From NCBI RefSeq assembly GCF_012979535.1, contig NZ_CP053015.1, positions 2,046,001-2,110,000 on the forward strand: DNA of 64,000 nucleotides, written 5' to 3'. Origin of the DNA: Sphingomonas lacunae (GTDB lineage: Bacteria > Pseudomonadota > Alphaproteobacteria > Sphingomonadales > Sphingomonadaceae). Numbering within the stretch: position 1 is the stretch's first letter; each line of letters begins with the position of its first letter. A program made the translations under genes and the position numbers. The notes under the pieces are model-generated. The model searched no databases. It worked only from the letters and a program-made list of their open reading frames with translations, and was not told where the DNA came from. Below, piece after piece: positions 26,554-57,179 of this stretch.

Positions 26554-27356
26554 CACCAGCCTCCGCTCGCGCCGCCGCCGCCAAAAGAGCCGCCGCCGCC
26601 CGAGAAGCCGCCGCCACCCCAAGAGCCACCGCCCCATGAGCTGCCACCGCCGCCCCAATCACTCCCACCGCTGCCCCAGACAATGATCGGGCCGCCCGAA
26701 CCCTTGCTCGAATAATGGCGTCCCTGTTTGCGCCCGATGATCAGCAGCAGGATGAAGAGGACAACAAAGGTCCAAAAGATAACCATGCCGATGGTATTGC
26801 CCATTTCTTCGGATTCAGCTGCCGCAGCGGCAACGCGCTGGGCTTCCTCGGGGGGGAGTGTCAGCTGGCGGATAACCGCATCCGCACCGGCCGTGACGCC
26901 GCCATCGAAATCACCCTCCTTGAACCTGGGTGTAATCTCGTTGCGAATAATTGTGCCTGACAAGGCGTCGGTCAGCACCGGCTCTACGCCATAACCGACT
27001 GAAATGTTCATCTTGCGCTCGTTTGGCGCGATCAACAGGACTACGCCATCGTTGCGTTCCTTATCGCCGATCCCCCAATGCCGGCCAAGCTGGTAGCCGA
27101 AATCGGCAATCTCATACCCCTGGAGATCGGGCACTGTCGCGATGACAAATTGCCGCTGGCTCTGAGTTTCCAGATTGGCGAGTTTGGTGGTCAGTGCCGC
27201 CTCTGTCTCGGGGGACAGAATGTTGGCGGCATCGACGACCCGTCCGGTCAATTCCGGGAATTGCTGTGCATAGGCAGGAGCGCCCGCCAACAAAAGTGAC
27301 AGTAGCAGGATCAACATGCTGGCCAACTGGCGCGCATGGCTCATGGCATTTGTCAT
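26553..27356 (-). CDS. TPM-domain protein with glycine-rich tail (YgcG type)
   Basis: The 267-residue protein has a signal peptide (to about AYAQQ), then a full TPM domain (about residues 32-170) with VVDAANILSPE, RHWGIGDKERNDGVVLLIAP and MNISVGYGVEPVLTD. A membrane helix follows (about 188-208). The C-terminus is almost pure glycine/serine/tryptophan, the hallmark of YgcG-like proteins. The first half would face the periplasm and the glycine-rich tail the cytoplasm. It overlaps both neighbours by a few bases. Confidence 0.9.
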   Translation of the reverse strand: MTNAMSHARQLASMLILLLSLLLAGAPAYAQQFPELTGRVVDAANILSPETEAALTTKLANLETQSQRQFVIATVPDLQGYEIADFGYQLGRHWGIGDKERNDGVVLLIAPNERKMNISVGYGVEPVLTDALSGTIIRNEITPRFKEGDFDGGVTAGADAVIRQLTLPPEEAQRVAAAAAESEEMGNTIGMVIFWTFVVLFILLLIIGRKQGRHYSSKGSGGPIIVWGSGGSDWGGGGSSWGGGSWGGGGFSGGGGSFGGGGASGGW

Positions 27357-49122: not shown

Positions 49123-50424
49123 CTAGAGAATGAATTTGCTCAGGTCGGTATCGCGAGCAATCGATGAGAGTTGCTTTTCGACATAGTTCGCGTCGATCAG
49201 CACCGTCTCTCCCTTGCGGTCCTCTGCGTCGAAGCTGATGTCCTCGAGCAAGCGTTCCATCACTGTCTGGAGGCGACGCGCGCCGATGTTTTCGACGGTG
49301 CGGTTCACTTCGGCGGCGATTCCGGCCAACCGCGCGATGGCGTCGGGGGCTATGCTGATGGTTACCCCTTCGGTGCCAAGCAGCGCGACATATTGCTGGG
49401 GTAGCGATGCCTTCGTTTCGGTGAGGATGCGGATGAAATCCTGTTCGGTCAGTGCGGCGAGCTCGACGCGGATCGGCAGGCGGCCCTGCAGTTCGGGAAG
49501 CAGATCGCTCGGCTTGGCGACGTGGAACGCCCCTGAGGCGATGAACAAGATGTGATCTGTCTTGAGCGGGCCATATTTGGTGGCAACCGTAGTGCCCTCG
49601 ATCAGCGGCAGCAGGTCGCGCTGCACGCCTTCGCGGCTGACCGAGCCGCCTCGGACATCGCTGACGGCGATCTTGTCGATCTCGTCGAGGAAGACGATGC
49701 CATTGGCTTCGGCGTCGGCGAGGGCGACGCGGGCGACATCGTCCTGGTCGAGGCGCTTGTCCTGTTCCTCCTCGACAAGGCGGGTCCAGGCGTCGCGCAC
49801 CTTGAGCTTGCGGCGCTTCTTAGGGGCGCCATTGCCGAACGCTTTGCCGAACATCTCACCGATGTTGATCATGCCGACATTGCCGCCGCCGGGGATTTCG
49901 AATGCGGCCTGCGGTGCCTCGCTCACCTCTATCTCGATTTCGGCGCTGTCGAGCGCGCCTTCCTCGAAGCGCTGGCGGAAGCTGGCGCGCGTGGCTTCGC
50001 TCGATTCCTTGCCGGTGAGCGCGTCGAGCAGGCGGTCCATCGCGGCGGCGGTGGCGGCATCGCGCACGGCTTCGCGGCGGCGATCCTTTTCGAGGCGCAC
50101 GGCCTCCTCAACCAGATCGCGGGCGATTTGTTCGACATCGCGGCCGACATAGCCAACTTCGGTGAACTTGGTCGCTTCGACCTTCACAAAGGGCGCGTCG
50201 GCGAGCTTGGCGAGGCGGCGGCTGATCTCTGTCTTGCCGCAGCCGGTGGGGCCGATCATCAGGATATTCTTGGGCGTCACCTCGTCGCGCAGGTCGGGGC
50301 CGAGCTGTTGGCGGCGCCAGCGGTTGCGCAAGGCGACGGCGACGGCGCGTTTGGCATCGCGCTGGCCGATGATGTGCTGGTCGAGGGCGGCGACAATGGC
50401 CTTTGGGGTCAAATCAGGGTTCAT
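49123..50424 (-). CDS. hslU: ATP-dependent protease ATPase subunit HslU
   Basis: HslU unfolds substrates for the HslV peptidase. The 433-residue AAA+ protein has [16 protein letters not shown], Walker [11 protein letters not shown], Walker [11 protein letters not shown], the pore loop AEVGYVGRD variant (TEVGYVGRD), and the C-terminal [15 protein letters not shown] type end that docks into HslV. It follows hslV by 60 bases in the same direction. Confidence 0.97.
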
Positions 50425-50484
50425 ATCCGGTCCGAAACAGAAGGCGAGATAGAGCGACCAAACGCCCTATGCAAAAGCAAAACA

Positions 50485-51060
50485 TCAAGCAATATCAATG
50501 ACTTCCAGCGTCAGCTGGTCGTTAGTGAAGACACAGATGTCCGCCGCCACCGCCATCGCCCGCCGCGCCAGTTTTTCCGCGTCCCCTTCATAGCCCACCA
50601 GAGCCCGCGCGGCGCTCAACGCATAGTTGCCGCCCGAGCCGATGGCGGTCACCCCGCCCTCAGGCTCGAGCACATCGCCATTGCCGGTCAGCACCAGCGT
50701 CACCTCCCGGTCGGCGACGATCATCATCGCCTCCAGATTGCGCAGGAACTTGTCGGTCCGCCAGTCCTTGGCCAGCTCCACCGCGGCGCGCAGCAACTGC
50801 CCGTTGTGCGTCTCCAGCCGCCGCTCCAGCCGCTCGAACAGGGTGAAGGCATCCGCCGTCGCCCCCGCAAAGCCCGCGATCACCGAGCCATCATGCAGCC
50901 GCCGCACCTTGCGCGCATTGGACTTCATCACGGTATTGCCCATCGACACCTGCCCATCACCAATGATGACGACGCGGCCGGGCGTGCGGACGGACAGGAT
51001 GGTGGTGCCATGCCAGGGCGAGGCGCCGTGCGAGGCGCTGGGCTGATGCTGTTCACTCAT
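50485..51060 (-). CDS. hslV: ATP-dependent protease peptidase subunit HslV
   Basis: HslV is the proteasome-like peptidase. The catalytic N-terminal threonine is the first of GTTILSVRT, here behind a prosequence of about 18 residues ending in WHG that must be removed. [20 protein letters not shown] and [13 protein letters not shown] follow. The ATG at 51060 is the only start in frame after a heat-shock-like promoter; there is no ribosome-binding site before it. The total is 191 residues. Confidence 0.96.
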
Positions 51061-51068
51061 GCCGCGCG

Positions 51069-51097
51069 ATATGGGCGAGCGCGGGGGAGGGTGCAAG
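51069..51097 (-). promoter_or_regulatory. Possible heat-shock (sigma-32) promoter of hslVU
   Basis: On the minus strand CTTGCA (51097-51092) and CCATAT (51074-51069, within CCCATAT) are 17 bases apart, the same spacing as in front of lon. The -10 box ends only eight bases before the hslV ATG, so the mRNA would start at or next to the start codon. Confidence 0.55.
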
Positions 51098-51118
51098 GGT
51101 TTGGCGGGGGGAGGGGGA

Positions 51119-51150
51119 TCTCACACAAAGACGCGAAGGCACGAAGGGGG
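51119..51150. repeat. Direct repeat, copy 1
   Basis: A 32-base sequence (51119-51150) recurs at 51644-51675. The last 21 bases are identical (GACGCGAAGGCACGAAGGGG plus one G) and the first eight too (TCTCACAC); only two of the three bases between them differ. The two copies bracket the gene at 51259-51621. Copy 1 carries an extra GCACGAAGGGG unit after it. Confidence 0.75.
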
Positions 51151-51258
51151 GCACGAAGGGGGGCGGCCCGTGGCAGGCCGATCCCGGTCGGCTTGAACAC
51201 TATTCACCCTGTTGATAGCCTGTCGCCCATAGTGACGGGCCAGAACAGGGAATGCGCC

Positions 51259-51621
51259 ATGGAAAGCGGAAAGCCATCCATTCATGACGAAATTCGCGAA
51301 GTGAATGATCTGCATAAACAAGGGGTTATCAACGACAAGACCCGAGAAGAGCTGGTTGCGATGGCGATTGAGGGTGATTCTTATTCTGCCAACAACAATG
51401 CCCGGCAATTGGGCGAGGTGGCGGGATGGCTGATTGTCCTGTTCATCTTTTTCCTTGTCGGCACGGCGGTGTTGGACCTGCGCTGGGACAAGGCCCTTCT
51501 TGCCGCAATCGTTGTGACCGGTGGGGGCGCAGCGGCGTCCGGCGGATGGGGCTGGCTGCGCAACCAGTTTGACGAGGCCAAGCGCCGCGCGCGTTTCCGG
51601 AAGCACCAGTCGGGCCAGTGA
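51259..51621 (+). CDS. Small SHOCT-like membrane protein
   Basis: The 120-residue protein starts at an ATG with AGGGA upstream. A short helical part (SIHDEIREVNDLHKQGVIND, then KTREELVAMA) resembles a SHOCT-type module, a short oligomerising domain. Two hydrophobic segments follow (about residues 55-70 and 78-92) and a basic C-terminal helix (RNQFDEAKRRARFRKHQ). I do not know a function. It lies between two direct repeats and next to hslVU on the other strand. Confidence 0.65.
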   Translation: MESGKPSIHDEIREVNDLHKQGVINDKTREELVAMAIEGDSYSANNNARQLGEVAGWLIVLFIFFLVGTAVLDLRWDKALLAAIVVTGGGAAASGGWGWLRNQFDEAKRRARFRKHQSGQ

Positions 51622-51643
51622 GCGGCGCGTCGCGCACACACAT

Positions 51644-51675
51644 TCTCACACTAGGACGCGAAGGCACGAAGGGGG
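51644..51675. repeat. Direct repeat, copy 2
   Basis: The second copy of the 32-base repeat that also occurs at 51119-51150. It lies 22 bases after the stop of the SHOCT-like gene and runs straight into the palindromic element at 51682. Confidence 0.75.
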
Positions 51676-51681
51676 AGAGGT

Positions 51682-51737
51682 GCCCCTCCGTCAGCCCTGC
51701 GGGCTGCCACCTCCCCATCGCAAGTCGATGGGGAGGG
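51682..51737. repeat. Palindromic intergenic element (partial copy)
   Basis: The element contains GCCCCTCCGTCAGCC, a small stem, GCTGCCACCTCCCC and a closing palindrome around 51712-51736 with CCTCCCCATCG against CGATGGGGAGG. The same modules occur in the larger element at 53516-53655 within the methyltransferase gene. This GC-rich layout is seen as a dispersed repeat in sphingomonad genomes. Confidence 0.7.
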
Positions 51738-51808
51738 TATTCAAGAGGGATTGGCCCATCATGAGTTGATGGGGAGGGAAGGGAGTCGCGCCAAGCCGCC
51801 AAGAGGTT

Positions 51809-52204
51809 TCACCCGCGCATCAGGGGGGCGTGGCGAACGGTCCATGCCTCCCCCAAGGCGGCGCGGAGCCGTTCGGCGAGGGCTTCGCCGCGCCGGTCGA
51901 AATGATCATGGGGATAGTCGGGCGAAAATTCGGGCGGCCCCTCTTCTCGGCTGTGCCAGCGGGCAATGTTCCAACTGTCATCATAGTCGGCCTGCCAGCG
52001 CCCTATGTCCTGCGCCAGGGCAAAGGGGATGGGCAAATGCTCCGGCATCCCTGACATGCCGCTGCCGTCCCACAGGCCGGTGGCACAGATGTCCAACCAC
52101 AGGGTGACGGTGCGGTCGTCGGGCGTTTCGCCCCATGGCCCGGCGTGCGCGTCGAGCGGGTCTGGCCGGCAGTGACAGGGGCGGATGGTGATGCGGGGTG
52201 GCAT
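51809..52204 (-). CDS. Hypothetical protein, divergent from the methyltransferase
   Basis: From the ATG at 52204 (AGGGA eight bases upstream) the protein has 131 residues. It is acidic and rich in Trp, Asp and Pro, with segments such as [38 protein letters not shown] and the C-terminal [16 protein letters not shown]. No signal peptide or membrane helix is present and I do not recognise a family. It shares a 114-base promoter region containing three 21-bp repeats with the divergent methyltransferase gene, so joint control is likely. The open frame further upstream is a shadow of the methyltransferase. Confidence 0.6.
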
Positions 52205-52219
52205 GTCGGTTCCCTGTCG

Positions 52220-52282
52220 GGGCCATTGCCCACACTTTGCGGGCCATTGCCCGGTCAATATGGGCAATTGCCCACATTCGCG
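52220..52282. repeat. Three tandem 21-bp repeats between divergent genes (likely operator)
   Basis: The units start at 52220, 52241 and 52262, exactly 21 bases apart. Each begins with a 12-base palindrome-like core: GGGCCATTGCCC twice, then GGGCAATTGCCC, the last a perfect palindrome. Units one and three also share the ACA following the core. A 21-base step is two turns of DNA, so bound dimers would line up on one face. A further inverted repeat, GCGGGA and TCCCGC, lies at 52289-52304 before the methyltransferase start. Confidence 0.8.
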
Positions 52283-52318
52283 CTTGGTGCGGGACAAATC
52301 CCGCATTACCACTGTCTC

Positions 52319-54166
52319 ATGAGCAACAAACTTTACTATGGCGACAATCTTTATGTCCTGCGCGACCATATTGCCAGTGACAGTATAGACCTGATCTACC
52401 TCGACCCGCCGTTCAACAGTAATGCCAATTACAACATCCTGTTCAAATCCCCGGCGGGCAAGGGGGCGGACAGCCAGATTGAGGCGTTTGAGGACAGCTG
52501 GCACTGGAATGACAAGGCCGAGCAGGCGTTTCATGAGGTGATGACCAGCGGCAACACGGATGTGGCGGAGTTGCTGCGCGCGATGCGCGGATTTTTGAAA
52601 GAGAATGACATGATGGCCTATCTGGCCATGATGGCGGTGCGGCTGATCGAGCTGCACCGGGTGTTGAAACCGACCGGCAGCCTCTATCTCCACTGCGACC
52701 CGACCGCGAGCCATTATCTCAAGCTGCTGCTGGATGGGATTTTCGGCGGACGGATGCGCGCTGAACTCATCTGGAAACGCAGCAGCGCGCACAATGATGG
52801 TAAGCAAGGCGCGAAACAACCAGGTCGAATTCACGATGTCATTTTTTTCTATACGAAGGCTGATGACTGGACCTGGAATCCAAGCTTTTCGGCGTACGAC
52901 GAAGCATATCTTGCCTCAGAGTATAAGCGGCAAAATCACCAGGGACGCTGGTATAAAGAAACCGATCTGACGGCTGCCAAACCCGGTGGCGATGTAAGTT
53001 ATGATTGGCGCGTGAAACGGCCTATCGGAGGCCCTTGGGAGGCGGACCTCACAGATGAATGGCTAACTCCCAACGACGCTTGGCAATATGAAGCAGTGAA
53101 GCCTTACGAAGGCCGGTTTTGGGCATATTCGAAGGCAAACCTTCGGGCTTTCGCTGAATCCGGCCACATAATTCATCGGTCAACAGGTATGCCCAGACTG
53201 GTGCAGTTCGCAGATGAAATGCCCGGCATTGCCTTGCAGGATTTGTGGATGGATATTCCACCCATATCAGCAAAAGCCCAAGAACGCCTCGGCTACCCCA
53301 CGCAAAAGCCCCTTGCCCTGCTCGAACGGATCATCAATGCCTCGTCCAATCCGGGCGATGTGGTGCTTGATCCCTTTTGCGGCTGTGGCACCGCCGTTGA
53401 TGCGGCGCAGAAGCTGGGGCGGCAGTGGATCGGCATTGATGTGACGCATCTGTCGATCGGCCTGATCGAGCGGCGCTTGCAGGACCGGTACGGGCCGAAC
53501 ATGCTGGCGAAGAAAAATCCTCCCCGGAACGGGGAGGTGGCCCCGAAGGGGTCGGAGGGGGCCATCGGTTCGCACGACGCCAGCGTGGGCGCGGGGGGAG
53601 AGCCCCCTCCGTCAGCGGCGGATGCCGCTGCCACCTCCCCGTCCCGGGGAGGATTGGCCTATAGCGTCATCGGCACGCCCAATGACATTGACAGCGCGCT
53701 GAAACTCGCCGCCGAGGAGCCGCACCAGTTCCAGTACTGGATCACGCAGGCGATTGACGGCCAACCCTATCAGGGCGGGCGCAAGGGCGCCGACCGGGGG
53801 ATTGACGGCTATATCTATTTCACCGGGCATGACCGGAAAACCGAGGCGGCGATCATTTCGGTCAAGGCCGGGCGCAATGTCGGCGTTGCCATGGTGCGCG
53901 ACCTGAAAGGGGTGATCGAACGCGAGAAATCGCCCATTGGCCTGTTCGTCTGTGCCGTTGCGCCGACGCGGGAGATGGAGCGAGAGGCGGCGGCAGCGGG
54001 CGTTTATGAAGGGGCGGATGGCCGGACCTATCCGCGCCTGCAAATCTACACCCTCGCCGAATATTTCGCCGGATTGCGGCCCAAGGTGCCGCTGCTCGAC
54101 CGGCAGGCGGCTAGCCGCAAGGCCGGGGTGCAGGACGACGGCCACAAGCAGGGGACGTTGTTGTGA
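52319..54166 (+). CDS. DNA methyltransferase fused to a restriction-endonuclease-like domain
   Basis: The 615-residue protein has a beta-class amino-methyltransferase domain. The catalytic DPPF is near residue 29 ([17 protein letters not shown]) and the SAM motif near residues 351-360 ([17 protein letters not shown]), the same order as in type III Mod and related N6-adenine/N4-cytosine enzymes. A linker of about 46 residues (400-446) is encoded by a palindromic repeat element. The C-terminal part (about 450-615) has [21 protein letters not shown] and later [15 protein letters not shown], resembling Mrr-like PD-(D/E)xK nuclease domains. It may be a one-protein restriction-modification enzyme. 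The start ATG lacks a ribosome-binding site. Confidence 0.82.
53516..53655. repeat. 140-bp palindromic repeat element inside the methyltransferase gene
   Basis: The left arm (53516-53562) and right arm (53602-53655) are near-perfect inverted copies. Outer modules AATCCTCCCCGG-ACGGGGAGG pair with the mirror ending CCTCCCCGTCCCGGGGAGGATT, and inner GGAGGGGGC pairs with GCCCCCTCC. Inner loops differ. The element keeps the reading frame open and is translated into a Gly/Pro/Ala/Ser-rich linker. A related partial copy lies at 51682. Confidence 0.8.
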
Positions 54167-54594
54167 GGGGGGATGTTCCTCCGTTTCTGAAGGAGGAAGA
54201 TCGCTGGTTTGTACAGATGCTGGCGAACGCGCTTGATCGGCCTTGCTCAGACCATGGAACAGACCTGCCGAACAGCATGATCCCGATCGAAGAGGTGCTT
54301 TACTCTGAATTGATCCGGGATTTGCGCATGATGCAGCGGAACATACCGAGCAGCGCCGCGCATTGGGAACTGGTCAGTTTCGGACAGTTCGGGTTGCCCG
54401 CAAGCGTGGGGCTGCTTCGGGTGCTGCGGGACGCCTCTCCGTGGCAATTTGCCGATGTGCTGGTCTGGCTGATGGGTCAGAGTGTCCGTCCCTATGCCCA
54501 GTCCTGCTATGCAGGGGCATTGCTTACACCGAATTTCTCTAACGATGTCAGACATATGATGCTCATGGAGCATCTGTTGCCCGATGATGAGTGA
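54163..54594 (+). CDS. Hypothetical protein coupled to the methyltransferase gene
   Basis: A GTG at 54163 overlaps the methyltransferase stop by four bases (GTGA), which suggests coupled translation. The 143-residue protein is soluble and mostly helical, with segments such as [32 protein letters not shown] and [17 protein letters not shown] recognise no family. Its tight coupling makes a partner or control role for the methyltransferase/nuclease plausible, but that is inference. Confidence 0.6.
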
Positions 54595-54609
54595 ACGCAG
54601 TTGCAGGTG

Positions 54610-54732
54610 ATGACTGACGCGCTGATCCTGCTCTGCCTGATTGTGGCGATGGTGCTGGGGCTTTCGGCGGTCGCCGCCTTTGTGCTGGCCTGTGGCGCGG
54701 TGGGGCGGTTGCTGGGGCAACGGGGTGACTAA
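54610..54732 (+). CDS. Possible 40-residue single-helix membrane protein
   Basis: An ATG at 54610 opens a 40-residue frame that is nearly all one hydrophobic helix (ALILLCLIVAMVLGLSAVAA and onwards) with a basic-polar end (GQRGD). An AGGTG stretch lies directly before the start, which is too close for a good ribosome-binding site. It lies just after the coupled hypothetical gene and before two REP palindromes. Confidence 0.35.
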   Translation: MTDALILLCLIVAMVLGLSAVAAFVLACGAVGRLLGQRGD

Positions 54733-54737
54733 CGCCG

Positions 54738-54826
54738 TGACGCACTGGGCCCCGGCTTTCGCCGGGGAACGGGGTAGGTGAGCGGGTGGTGAGGGGCGTG
54801 CTGGGCCCCTGCTTTCGCGGGGGAGC
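54738..54826. repeat. Pair of REP-like palindromes
   Basis: Two short copies, at 54738-54770 and 54798-54826, share the pattern CTGGGCCCC-GCTTTCGC-GGGG. In the first, CCCCGGC (54750-54756) pairs with GCCGGGG (54761-54767) around TTTC. In the second the stem has one mismatch. This is a common dispersed palindrome type in sphingomonads. The stretch holds no gene. Confidence 0.7.
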
Positions 54827-54846
54827 ATGATAGGGGAGAGCGGCGG

Positions 54847-55062
54847 ATGGTGAGGCGGTTGTGGGATGCTGTGGTGGGCGGGTTGATCCTGACCCTGTTC
54901 TGGTATGGCTATCGCGCCATTTACAAGGGGCAGTTCCCGTTTGACGGGGGCGTGGGCGGCTTTGCGATGGAGTTTGCCGCCATATGGCTGGCCATTTCGC
55001 TGTTCGTGCTGGTGGCGGTGGTGGTCGATGCCCGGTTGCGGGCCAAGCCGGACGGGGAGTGA
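54847..55062 (+). CDS. Small two-helix membrane protein
   Basis: The 71-residue protein begins after GGGAG and has two hydrophobic helices (about residues 7-24 and 41-61) with a glycine-rich loop (YKGQFPFDGGVGGF). The last residues are basic then acidic. No family is recognised. It is the first of three small membrane proteins in a row on this strand. Confidence 0.55.
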   Translation: MVRRLWDAVVGGLILTLFWYGYRAIYKGQFPFDGGVGGFAMEFAAIWLAISLFVLVAVVVDARLRAKPDGE

Positions 55063-55241
55063 GGCGGGCGGATTGCTGCCATAGCGGCGCCATTTGCCGG
55101 TGCCTGCGGGCGCGCTTTCGATTGACAATGGCCGTTCGGCGACCTCTATTTTCCTTTCGCATGGGGCGGCGCAATGCCTTGAAAAACAAGGTATTTGCTT
55201 GGGCAGGCATGTCCTGCCGAGGGAATAGGGGAGGGAGTTGC

Positions 55242-55433
55242 ATGAAGATAAAGACGGCTGCGCTGGTCGCCATGGTGTGTCTGGCGATCACATTGCTGTT
55301 CAGCCTGTCATCGGGATTTCTGATGGGGGCGGGCAGCTATGAAAGCTTTGGGTTGATGTCGATGATCGTCTCCGTGCTGCACTTTGGCAGCCTCATCAAC
55401 CTGGCCTATGCCTTTTATGCGGCGGCGAAATAA
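55242..55433 (+). CDS. Small two-helix membrane protein
   Basis: The 63-residue protein starts at an ATG with a strong GGGAGG site. Helices lie at about residues 6-28 and 37-60 (ALVAMVCLAITLLFSLSSGF; SMIVSVLHFGSLINLAYAFY). The next gene starts two bases after its stop, so both are likely cotranslated. No known function. Confidence 0.65.
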   Translation: MKIKTAALVAMVCLAITLLFSLSSGFLMGAGSYESFGLMSMIVSVLHFGSLINLAYAFYAAAK

Positions 55434-55435
55434 TC

Positions 55436-55687
55436 ATGATCGAGGGATTGGAAGAGCAACTCGGCGAAAGCGACGGAACGGCTGGTGACGGGCCGTCCTT
55501 GCTGACGGTGCTGGCGTGGGTGCAGCTGTTGATCGGATTGTTGGTGGGTCTGGGTTTCCTGCTCGCCGGTGAAGGCGGGTTCAAGCTGTTCGGTCTGGTC
55601 AGCCTGTTCGTCGGCTTGTCAGGCTTTGCGGTTTTCCGCGGGTTCAACCGGGTGATCGAGCTGTTGCAGCGCATCAGCGAGAAATAG
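55436..55687 (+). CDS. Small two-helix membrane protein
   Basis: The 83-residue protein has an acidic N-terminus (residues 1-20), two hydrophobic helices (about 22-42 and 48-68), and a short helical end (FNRVIELLQRISEK). It follows the preceding gene by two bases. No function is known; its acidic N-terminus and paired helices suggest a small regulatory or structural membrane protein. Confidence 0.65.
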   Translation: MIEGLEEQLGESDGTAGDGPSLLTVLAWVQLLIGLLVGLGFLLAGEGGFKLFGLVSLFVGLSGFAVFRGFNRVIELLQRISEK

Positions 55688-55808
55688 GCGCAGCGCGCGG
55701 GACAGGATTGCCGGCAGGGGGCTTGAAATTCGGCGCGGGGGCGGTCACCACCCCGAAGGCATGACGTCATGACGTGCGTCAGCGGTCGCAGCGGGAGCAG
55801 GTGAGCCA

Positions 55809-57179
55809 ATGTCAGCCGAATGGGTCGATTTTTCCTTTGTCCGCAATGGGGAAGGGTGTCTCGTCTGTTCGGCGGAGGAGGCCGCGGCGCTGATCGCCTC
55901 CGGTGACCTGCTGGCGACGACCCGCGTCACCCTGTTCAACCCCGGCGGGCGCAAGGTGATGAAGGCCGGCGATGTGCCGGTGCTCGCCCCCATGCTGGCG
56001 CCGCCCGCTGTGGCTGCGGCTCCGGAGCCGGCTGCGCCTGCTGATGCGGGGGAGGCGGCTGAGGCGGGGGAGGCGGCTGAACCGGCGGTGTCGGTCCCCC
56101 GGACCAAGCGGCCCGCCAAGCCCAAGGATGCGGCCAAGAGCGCGGCCAAGGACGGGCCCTGGACGGCGCCCGGCGCGGGTGAGCTGGTGCCGGAAAGCGC
56201 GGGCGCGGCGGAGGCTGTGCCTGCCGCGGCGGTGGCGGCGGTTGAGGTCAAGACGGCGGCGTCCGCGCCGGTCGCCCCTGTCGGCCAACCCAAGGCGGTG
56301 CCGCCGAAGCCGGCGGCCAAGCCCGGCAATGGCTCCAGCCCCGGATGCGGGTGGAGCTTTGCCATCATCACCCTCATCATCATCGCCGCGCTGTTGTGGT
56401 TCGCCAGGGCCGACAAGGAGGCAGAGGTGCAGGCGGTGGTGACCAGCACCGCCAATGTGCGCGACCGGCCAACCGCCCGGAATTCCGAAGTGCTGTTCAG
56501 CTATTCCGCCGGACAGGAACTGGTCGGCCGGTGGGTGCCGGGCGAAATCAACGCCAGCCAGCGGTGGCTGGAGTTCGAGGTCGATGGCGTCAAACGCTAT
56601 GTCTGGGAAGGCAATTTGCGCGACGTGACCCCGGCGGCCGATGCCGAGGCGGATGCAGCGGCCGAGGCTGCGGGAGTGGCGGCTGATGCGGCTGCTGATG
56701 CGGCGGCTGCGGAAGCGGCGGTGGACACTGCGGCTGCGGTCGCTGCCGCGGGTGAAGCGATGGCCGGTGCGGCTGAAGCTGCGGGGACGGGGGCTGACCC
56801 CGGTGTCGGGCCAAGCCTGTCCCGCTATGTCGGCAATTACCCGAGCGACCGGATCGACGGCACCAGTTTCTGGACCCACCCACAGGTGCGCGCCGCCGTG
56901 CAGGCGGTGGTGCCCAACCCCGCGATCAGGCAGCGGGTGCTGGCCCCCGGGGTCGAATCCCCGGTCCAGCGCCACAGCGACGGGCGCGTGATGGGCGGGG
57001 CGTGTGAACCGCACAATTGCGGATCCCACAATTGGCGGATCATTGTCGGTGGCAACGGCCAGTGGACACAGGTCTGCTATTACAACGACGCCAACATGGC
57101 GCAATCAGGCTATTATTCGACCATGGGCTTTCAGCGTTACAGCGATGTCTGGCCGAAGGGCGGCTCTGGCTGTTCCTGA
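55809..57179 (+). CDS. Membrane protein with SH3-like and Ivy-like (lysozyme inhibitor) domains
   Basis: The 456-residue protein has an N-terminal soluble part (residues 1-60, AEWVDFSFVRNGEG type), a long Ala/Pro-rich linker, one membrane helix (about 183-199, SFAIITLIIIAALLWFA), then an SH3b-like domain (about 206-270, TANVRDRPTARNSEVLFSY). A second Ala-rich linker and a C-terminal domain (340-456) follow. The last has CEPHNC at 399-404, close to the CKPHDC loop with which Ivy blocks the lysozyme active site, and two more cysteines. The C-terminal half would lie in the periplasm. Ivy activity is inferred from this motif. Confidence 0.75.
   Translation: MSAEWVDFSFVRNGEGCLVCSAEEAAALIASGDLLATTRVTLFNPGGRKVMKAGDVPVLAPMLAPPAVAAAPEPAAPADAGEAAEAGEAAEPAVSVPRTKRPAKPKDAAKSAAKDGPWTAPGAGELVPESAGAAEAVPAAAVAAVEVKTAASAPVAPVGQPKAVPPKPAAKPGNGSSPGCGWSFAIITLIIIAALLWFARADKEAEVQAVVTSTANVRDRPTARNSEVLFSYSAGQELVGRWVPGEINASQRWLEFEVDGVKRYVWEGNLRDVTPAADAEADAAAEAAGVAADAAADAAAAEAAVDTAAAVAAAGEAMAGAAEAAGTGADPGVGPSLSRYVGNYPSDRIDGTSFWTHPQVRAAVQAVVPNPAIRQRVLAPGVESPVQRHSDGRVMGGACEPHNCGSHNWRIIVGGNGQWTQVCYYNDANMAQSGYYSTMGFQRYSDVWPKGGSGCS

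Follow-up and report, generated by a model that had tools for sequence, protein, structure and literature searches.

Three palindromes at exact 21-bp spacing upstream of a methyltransferase-nuclease gene in Sphingomonas lacunae, a candidate operator found in a single genome

Repeated palindromic sites known as C-boxes lie upstream of type II restriction-modification genes, and some restriction-modification systems limit themselves through a recognition site placed in their own promoter. A tested example from a type I system is RptR, a dimeric repressor shown by experiment to bind a promoter of restriction-modification genes at three palindromic direct repeats (PMC12255303). The RptR sites carry TAGCTA within 9-bp repeats, all three between 58 and 31 bp upstream of rptR, the gene that opens the restriction-modification island (PMC12255303).

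We analyzed a 64-kb stretch of the Sphingomonas lacunae chromosome (64,000 nucleotides; hereafter, the window), for which a preliminary description had reported three palindromic repeats between a hypothetical gene and a methyltransferase-nuclease gene and had read them as an operator of restriction-modification genes. The repeats, their exact spacing, and their positions were all borne out: cores GGGCCATTGCCC, GGGCCATTGCCC, and GGGCAATTGCCC start at 52220, 52241, and 52262, exactly 21 bp from start to start. The features of the locus are as follows.

51809 to 52204, minus strand: 131-aa gene, product weakly similar to CdiI (contact-dependent-inhibition immunity protein)
52205 to 52318, no strand: divergent intergenic gap of 114 bp between the 131-aa gene and the methyltransferase gene, containing the array
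52220 to 52231, no strand: core 1, GGGCCATTGCCC, palindromic in 5 of 6 pairs
52220 to 52273, minus strand: the entire array as one imperfect inverted repeat, with 25-nt arms (52220-52244 and 52249-52273) that are 76% complementary
52241 to 52252, no strand: core 2, GGGCCATTGCCC, centre of the 54-bp array, palindromic in 5 of 6 pairs
52257 to 52278, no strand: 22-bp near-palindrome AATATGGGCAATTGCCCACATT enclosing core 3, 10 of 11 pairs
52262 to 52273, no strand: core 3, GGGCAATTGCCC, a perfect 12-bp palindrome
52285 to 52308, plus strand: second hairpin, TGGTGCGGGA-CAAA-TCCCGCATTA, with a 10-pair stem and a CAAA loop, absent from the preliminary description
52319 to 54166, plus strand: 615-aa fusion gene, encoding an N6/N4 DNA methyltransferase (aa 23-375), a variable middle, and an Mrr-like nuclease domain (aa 465-581)
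54163 to 54594, plus strand: 143-aa orphan protein, whose start overlaps the methyltransferase stop

Core 1 lies 15 bp from the ATG of the 131-aa gene (52204, minus strand) and core 3 lies 45 bp from the ATG of the methyltransferase gene (52319, plus strand). The near-palindrome at 52257-52278 is perhaps the strongest site of the array.

The array is real and non-random. Equally spaced triples of 12-mers (≤1 mismatch, spacing 13 to 60) occur twice in the window and in 0 of 100 dinucleotide shuffles; the second triple, at 26571, is a Gly-rich coding repeat. Taken singly, the motif at ≤2 mismatches shows no enrichment in the window (52 matches against 44.8 ± 8.0 expected, a count reached by 22 of 100 shuffles), so it is the array that carries the significance. 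Compared pairwise between units, the cores match at 12, 11, and 11 of 12 positions, whereas the 9-bp spacers match at 2, 0, and 4 of 9, where chance alone would give 26%; Fisher p values for core versus spacer (0.0003, 0.00003, and 0.046) are optimistic, the core boundary having been picked after inspection of the data. In a tandem repeat or minisatellite the entire unit, spacer included, is alike between copies, and here the spacers are not. The 21-bp unit is therefore no recent tandem duplication, and the contrast between cores and spacers points to selection acting on the cores.

The main rival explanation turns on the same contrast. The array could be a functionless relic: an old minisatellite, with a palindromic tandem unit of 21 bp, in which the spacers drifted and chance or gene conversion preserved the GC-rich palindromic cores. 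Random spacers combined with near-identical cores are unlike the neutral drift of a tandem repeat, and we consider such a relic unlikely, although it holds an appreciable share of the probability.

To a three-site DNA operator for a dimeric DNA-binding protein at a divergent promoter we give somewhat less than an even chance. We favor this reading because the phase is exact, shuffles did not yield such a triple, the cores are kept while the spacers are random, the array sits in a divergent gap, and it is unique in the genome. The locus has what a multi-site operator has, several near-identical palindromic sites at constant helical phase. A putative dimeric protein would bind each 12-bp palindrome. 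Since 21 bp corresponds to two turns of B-DNA, three dimers would lie on one helix face and could bind cooperatively, and the array would be placed to block or shape the divergent promoters of the 131-aa and methyltransferase genes. Protein binding, cooperativity, the presence of promoters, and the identity of the controlled gene are all four what we infer; a consensus scan of 51600-52500 returned no sigma-70-like promoter or terminator.

On the single 2.98-Mb contig of its own genome, GGGCNATTGCCC is found in 13 places, three of which are the array; the reversed pattern, used as a control, gave 2 matches. All 10 of the other single matches fall within ORFs of at least 100 aa, although such ORFs are frequent by chance in GC-rich DNA, so that this location says little about some of the 10 sites. 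A global regulon was ruled out on these 10 of 10 matches. When GGGCN4GCCC pairs at 21 bp were sought with one mismatch allowed and the loop bases free, only the array was found in its own genome. The repeats are thus not scattered over many unrelated sites of the genome, an outcome that the preliminary description had named as one that would count against it. In the family, the two-core pattern at ≤2 mismatches was found in 4 of 397 genomes: its own and, among the 396 others, three that match weakly, of which two have a single intact core and the third has no intact core. An exact-pattern scan of viral contigs gave no relatives of the array and no GGGCTATAGCCC pair. Searched as literature text, the exact core strings brought up records whose titles, as far as these go, concern sulfatases and macrophages.

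The array thus looks private to its lineage, with one genome of the species and 396 other genomes of the family scanned; it also looks private to its own genome, as a relic might be. As a single private copy, it provides no comparative proof of function. Outside the phylum, an exact-pattern scan of genome contigs found 21-bp spaced GGGCNATNGCCC pairs in six contigs, which favors a relic in that arrays of this kind can arise in unrelated places. Most of these arrays, however, have spacers that are alike too and read as whole-unit tandem repeats, unlike the array studied here. Three metagenome-assembled contigs (L094, 826-942; L097, 491-544; L098, 373-447), two of Prevotellaceae and one of Spirochaetaceae and so from two phyla, carry 3 to 6 GGGCTA(T/C)AGCCC palindromes at exactly 21 bp. 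A Streptomyces varsoviensis contig holds three GGGCCATCGCCC, and Mycolicibacter and Chloroflexi contigs hold pairs.

If the array is an operator, its regulator does not stand out among the neighbors. The preliminary description had offered the 131-aa or the 143-aa protein for this role, a suggestion that found no backing. A profile of the 131-aa protein built with one relative selects the CdiI structure 7m5f_A (E 0.01), from a Serratia marcescens contact-dependent inhibition system. The predicted model of the protein, of moderate confidence (pLDDT 65), gave the same structure as its top fold match (E 0.021, probability 1.00, TM-score 0.42 by query); the second-ranked match had an E value of 1.7, and none fell below 0.001. 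As a lead from sequence and predicted fold, the 131-aa product may be an immunity-type protein and no repressor. Besides its own genome, it has two weak matches in 396 genomes of the order, one with an internal stop, and one match among 279 genomes of the class; no match was found in plasmids or phages. The 143-aa protein had no match in 285 other genomes of the order, in plasmids, in phages, or in Pfam, and thus no family; its model (mean pLDDT 46.6) was unusable.

A Pfam scan of 11 proteins between 49.1 and 58.6 kb, which include eight beyond the 131-aa, 143-aa, and methyltransferase proteins, returned no known transcription regulator above the cutoff and no helix-turn-helix or C-protein family. 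The only regulator name among them was a weak Sigma54_activat match below the cutoff, in an HslU-like AAA protein. A candidate binding protein is probably encoded away from the array locus. As to the surroundings, hslV was found in 74 of 80 genomes of the genus, its own included, and the 131-aa or 120-aa neighbor was present in none of the 1.5-kb flanks of 29 other hslV loci compared. Many genomes of the genus, among the matches listed, contain close copies of a dispersed intergenic repeat that lies at 51681-51743.

The 615-aa protein has a type II methyltransferase as its best PADLOC match, and its best sequence match among solved structures is CcrMI, over aa 323-374 only. The alignment with its homologues extends over most of the protein, and the middle is variable, as expected of a putative target-recognition region. 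In an alignment of 33 of the 37 methyltransferase proteins (four of <450 aa were left out), Asp496 and Lys516 of the nuclease domain are invariant (33 of 33). At position 514 a Glu or Gln would be expected, yet 27 proteins have Ser there; 4 have Glu and 2 have Gln. With Ser in most proteins, cleavage activity is therefore uncertain, and a variant or dead active site of the nuclease-like domain is possible. The reading frames of four of the 37 stop after 183 to 350 aa: one (L044) is shortened by an in-frame stop, two (L052 and L057) apparently by frame changes, and the fourth (L060) has no recognizable second part. A dispersed palindromic repeat at 53514-53656 runs in frame through the methyltransferase gene between the methylase and nuclease-like domains; several genomes of the genus hold partly similar copies, and the homologue consensus has no residues there.

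Methyltransferase matches at E ≤ 1e-60 are found in 32 of 396 genomes of the order, its own included; at least partial matches are found in 1234 plasmid and 403 phage records, of which the homologues compared here are a fraction. We compared 36 homologues: 29 loci from the 31 other genomes of the order (two gave no locus), 5 from the 35 plasmid and phage records (7 and 28) matched over at least 80% of the query, and 2 from the same genus. A pattern search of viral contigs gave no confirmed relative. Among the 80 genomes of the genus, the two with close relatives (G438 and G454; protein identity 68% and 62%) share DNA similarity that starts at the start codon or 12 bases past it, with none before.

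The array is absent upstream of all 36 homologues, the two of the same genus included, so that the search proposed in the preliminary description came back empty. A conserved operator of the methyltransferase family was ruled out by this count, and, judged from these upstream sequences, the array is no inherited part of that family. The position of the gene differs from one related genome to another. We found no homologous locus in which both the methyltransferase and the hypothetical gene are kept; the methyltransferase is kept without the repeats, an outcome close to the first of those that the preliminary description had named as counting against it. The operator-like anatomy proposed earlier stands, with its palindromic cores, its two-turn spacing, cores kept against random spacers, and its place in a divergent gap, whereas the proposed restriction-modification control lacks support, with the array at 0 of 36 homologues. 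Neither conservation upstream nor an adjacent regulator gene, both of which go with a restriction-modification control operator of the C-box or RptR type, was found, and a link of the array to restriction-modification timing is not supported.

The enzyme itself might take the part of the regulator: by binding or methylating its own recognition sequence in the promoter, or both, with the shared GGGCAAT/ATTGCCC as an example of such a site, it would limit its own expression. The array lies immediately upstream of the methyltransferase gene, the core has adenines on both strands, and the neighboring proteins scanned include no known regulator family. However, the homologue in G438 shows 68% identity over aa 1-606, with DNA homology continuous through the variable middle, and should by inference have the same specificity, yet the 12 kb around it contain no copy of the motif. 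Nor does any of the 36 homologues have its own 21-bp spaced repeat in the 250 bp upstream, where 12-base direct repeats occur in three (spacing 26, 39, and 38). We consider self-limitation of this kind very unlikely. A bolder version, in which the fused methyltransferase-nuclease would methylate three phased promoter sites and act as enzyme, sensor of unmethylated DNA, and self-repressor at once, a lineage-private epigenetic timer, is highly improbable.

Because the cores are palindromic, RNA of the array folds well on both strands, and the arms 52220-52244 and 52249-52273 pair. The fold energy of the minus-strand RNA is −35.9 kcal/mol, and z-scores for 52210-52280 are −4.2 on the minus strand and −3.2 on the plus strand. 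The array could be read as an RNA element: in the minus-strand transcript, the 5′ leader preceding the 131-aa coding sequence would form a long hairpin that controls translation or mRNA life, and the separate plus-strand hairpin at 52285-52308 precedes the methyltransferase start. When the spacers were shuffled 2,000 times with the cores fixed, equal folding was seen in only 3.4% of minus-strand versions (34% on the plus strand), which hints weakly at an RNA hairpin in the 131-aa gene leader. Yet palindromic cores fold on both strands by construction, and the spacer signal is weak and limited to one strand. Homologues examined show no conservation, and the three Rfam matches in 50000-56000 all lie far below the gathering score, so that no curated RNA family is represented. 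An RNA element is, in our judgment, distinctly unlikely. Nested in the second hairpin, which ends ten bases upstream of the methyltransferase ATG, is a perfect inverted repeat (TGCGGGA-CAAA-TCCCGCA, 52288-52305); for the hairpin's inner 16-mer, the genome contains one exact copy and, at 2 mismatches, 6 more places (control, 4).

The array could also be coding sequence, within an N-terminal extension of one flanking gene. An ORF at 52145-54166 reads through it without a stop, and so does the frame of the 131-aa gene on the minus strand; the period of 21, divisible by 3, would yield the peptides GPLP/GPLP/GQLP or GQLP/GQWP/GQWP. However, most of 34 homologues (of which 4 had their start set by alignment, with no start codon) can start at the conserved x-N-x-L-[YF]-[YF]-G-D-N, that is, at 52319, and the 131-aa gene has AGGGA, a ribosome-site-like stretch, directly before its own ATG at 52204. 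We regard a coding repeat as extremely unlikely.

As it stands, the main effect of these results is to correct the guess of a conserved restriction-modification control element. If a protein does bind the array, it would be a compact three-site operator with helical phasing and an origin in a single lineage, and an example of a mobile DNA-modification gene coming under local control.

Set beside known systems, the array is closest in letters to the repeats of the Prevotellaceae and Spirochaetaceae contigs, which share a 12-bp GGGC-NNNN-GCCC palindrome every 21 bp; they differ in their loop letters and in having spacers that are alike, as in ordinary tandem repeats. C-protein operators have a similar layout, but the 11 neighbors scanned include no C-protein family. 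With RptR the array shares three short palindromic direct repeats beside a DNA-modification system, here in a putative promoter region, while core and spacing differ and the genes adjoining the array show no regulator family (PMC12255303). Since core, spacing, and adjacent regulator gene differ, the array is not shown to be a member of that system; RptR is its nearest tested parallel, and, by analogy, the array may work like the RptR operator.
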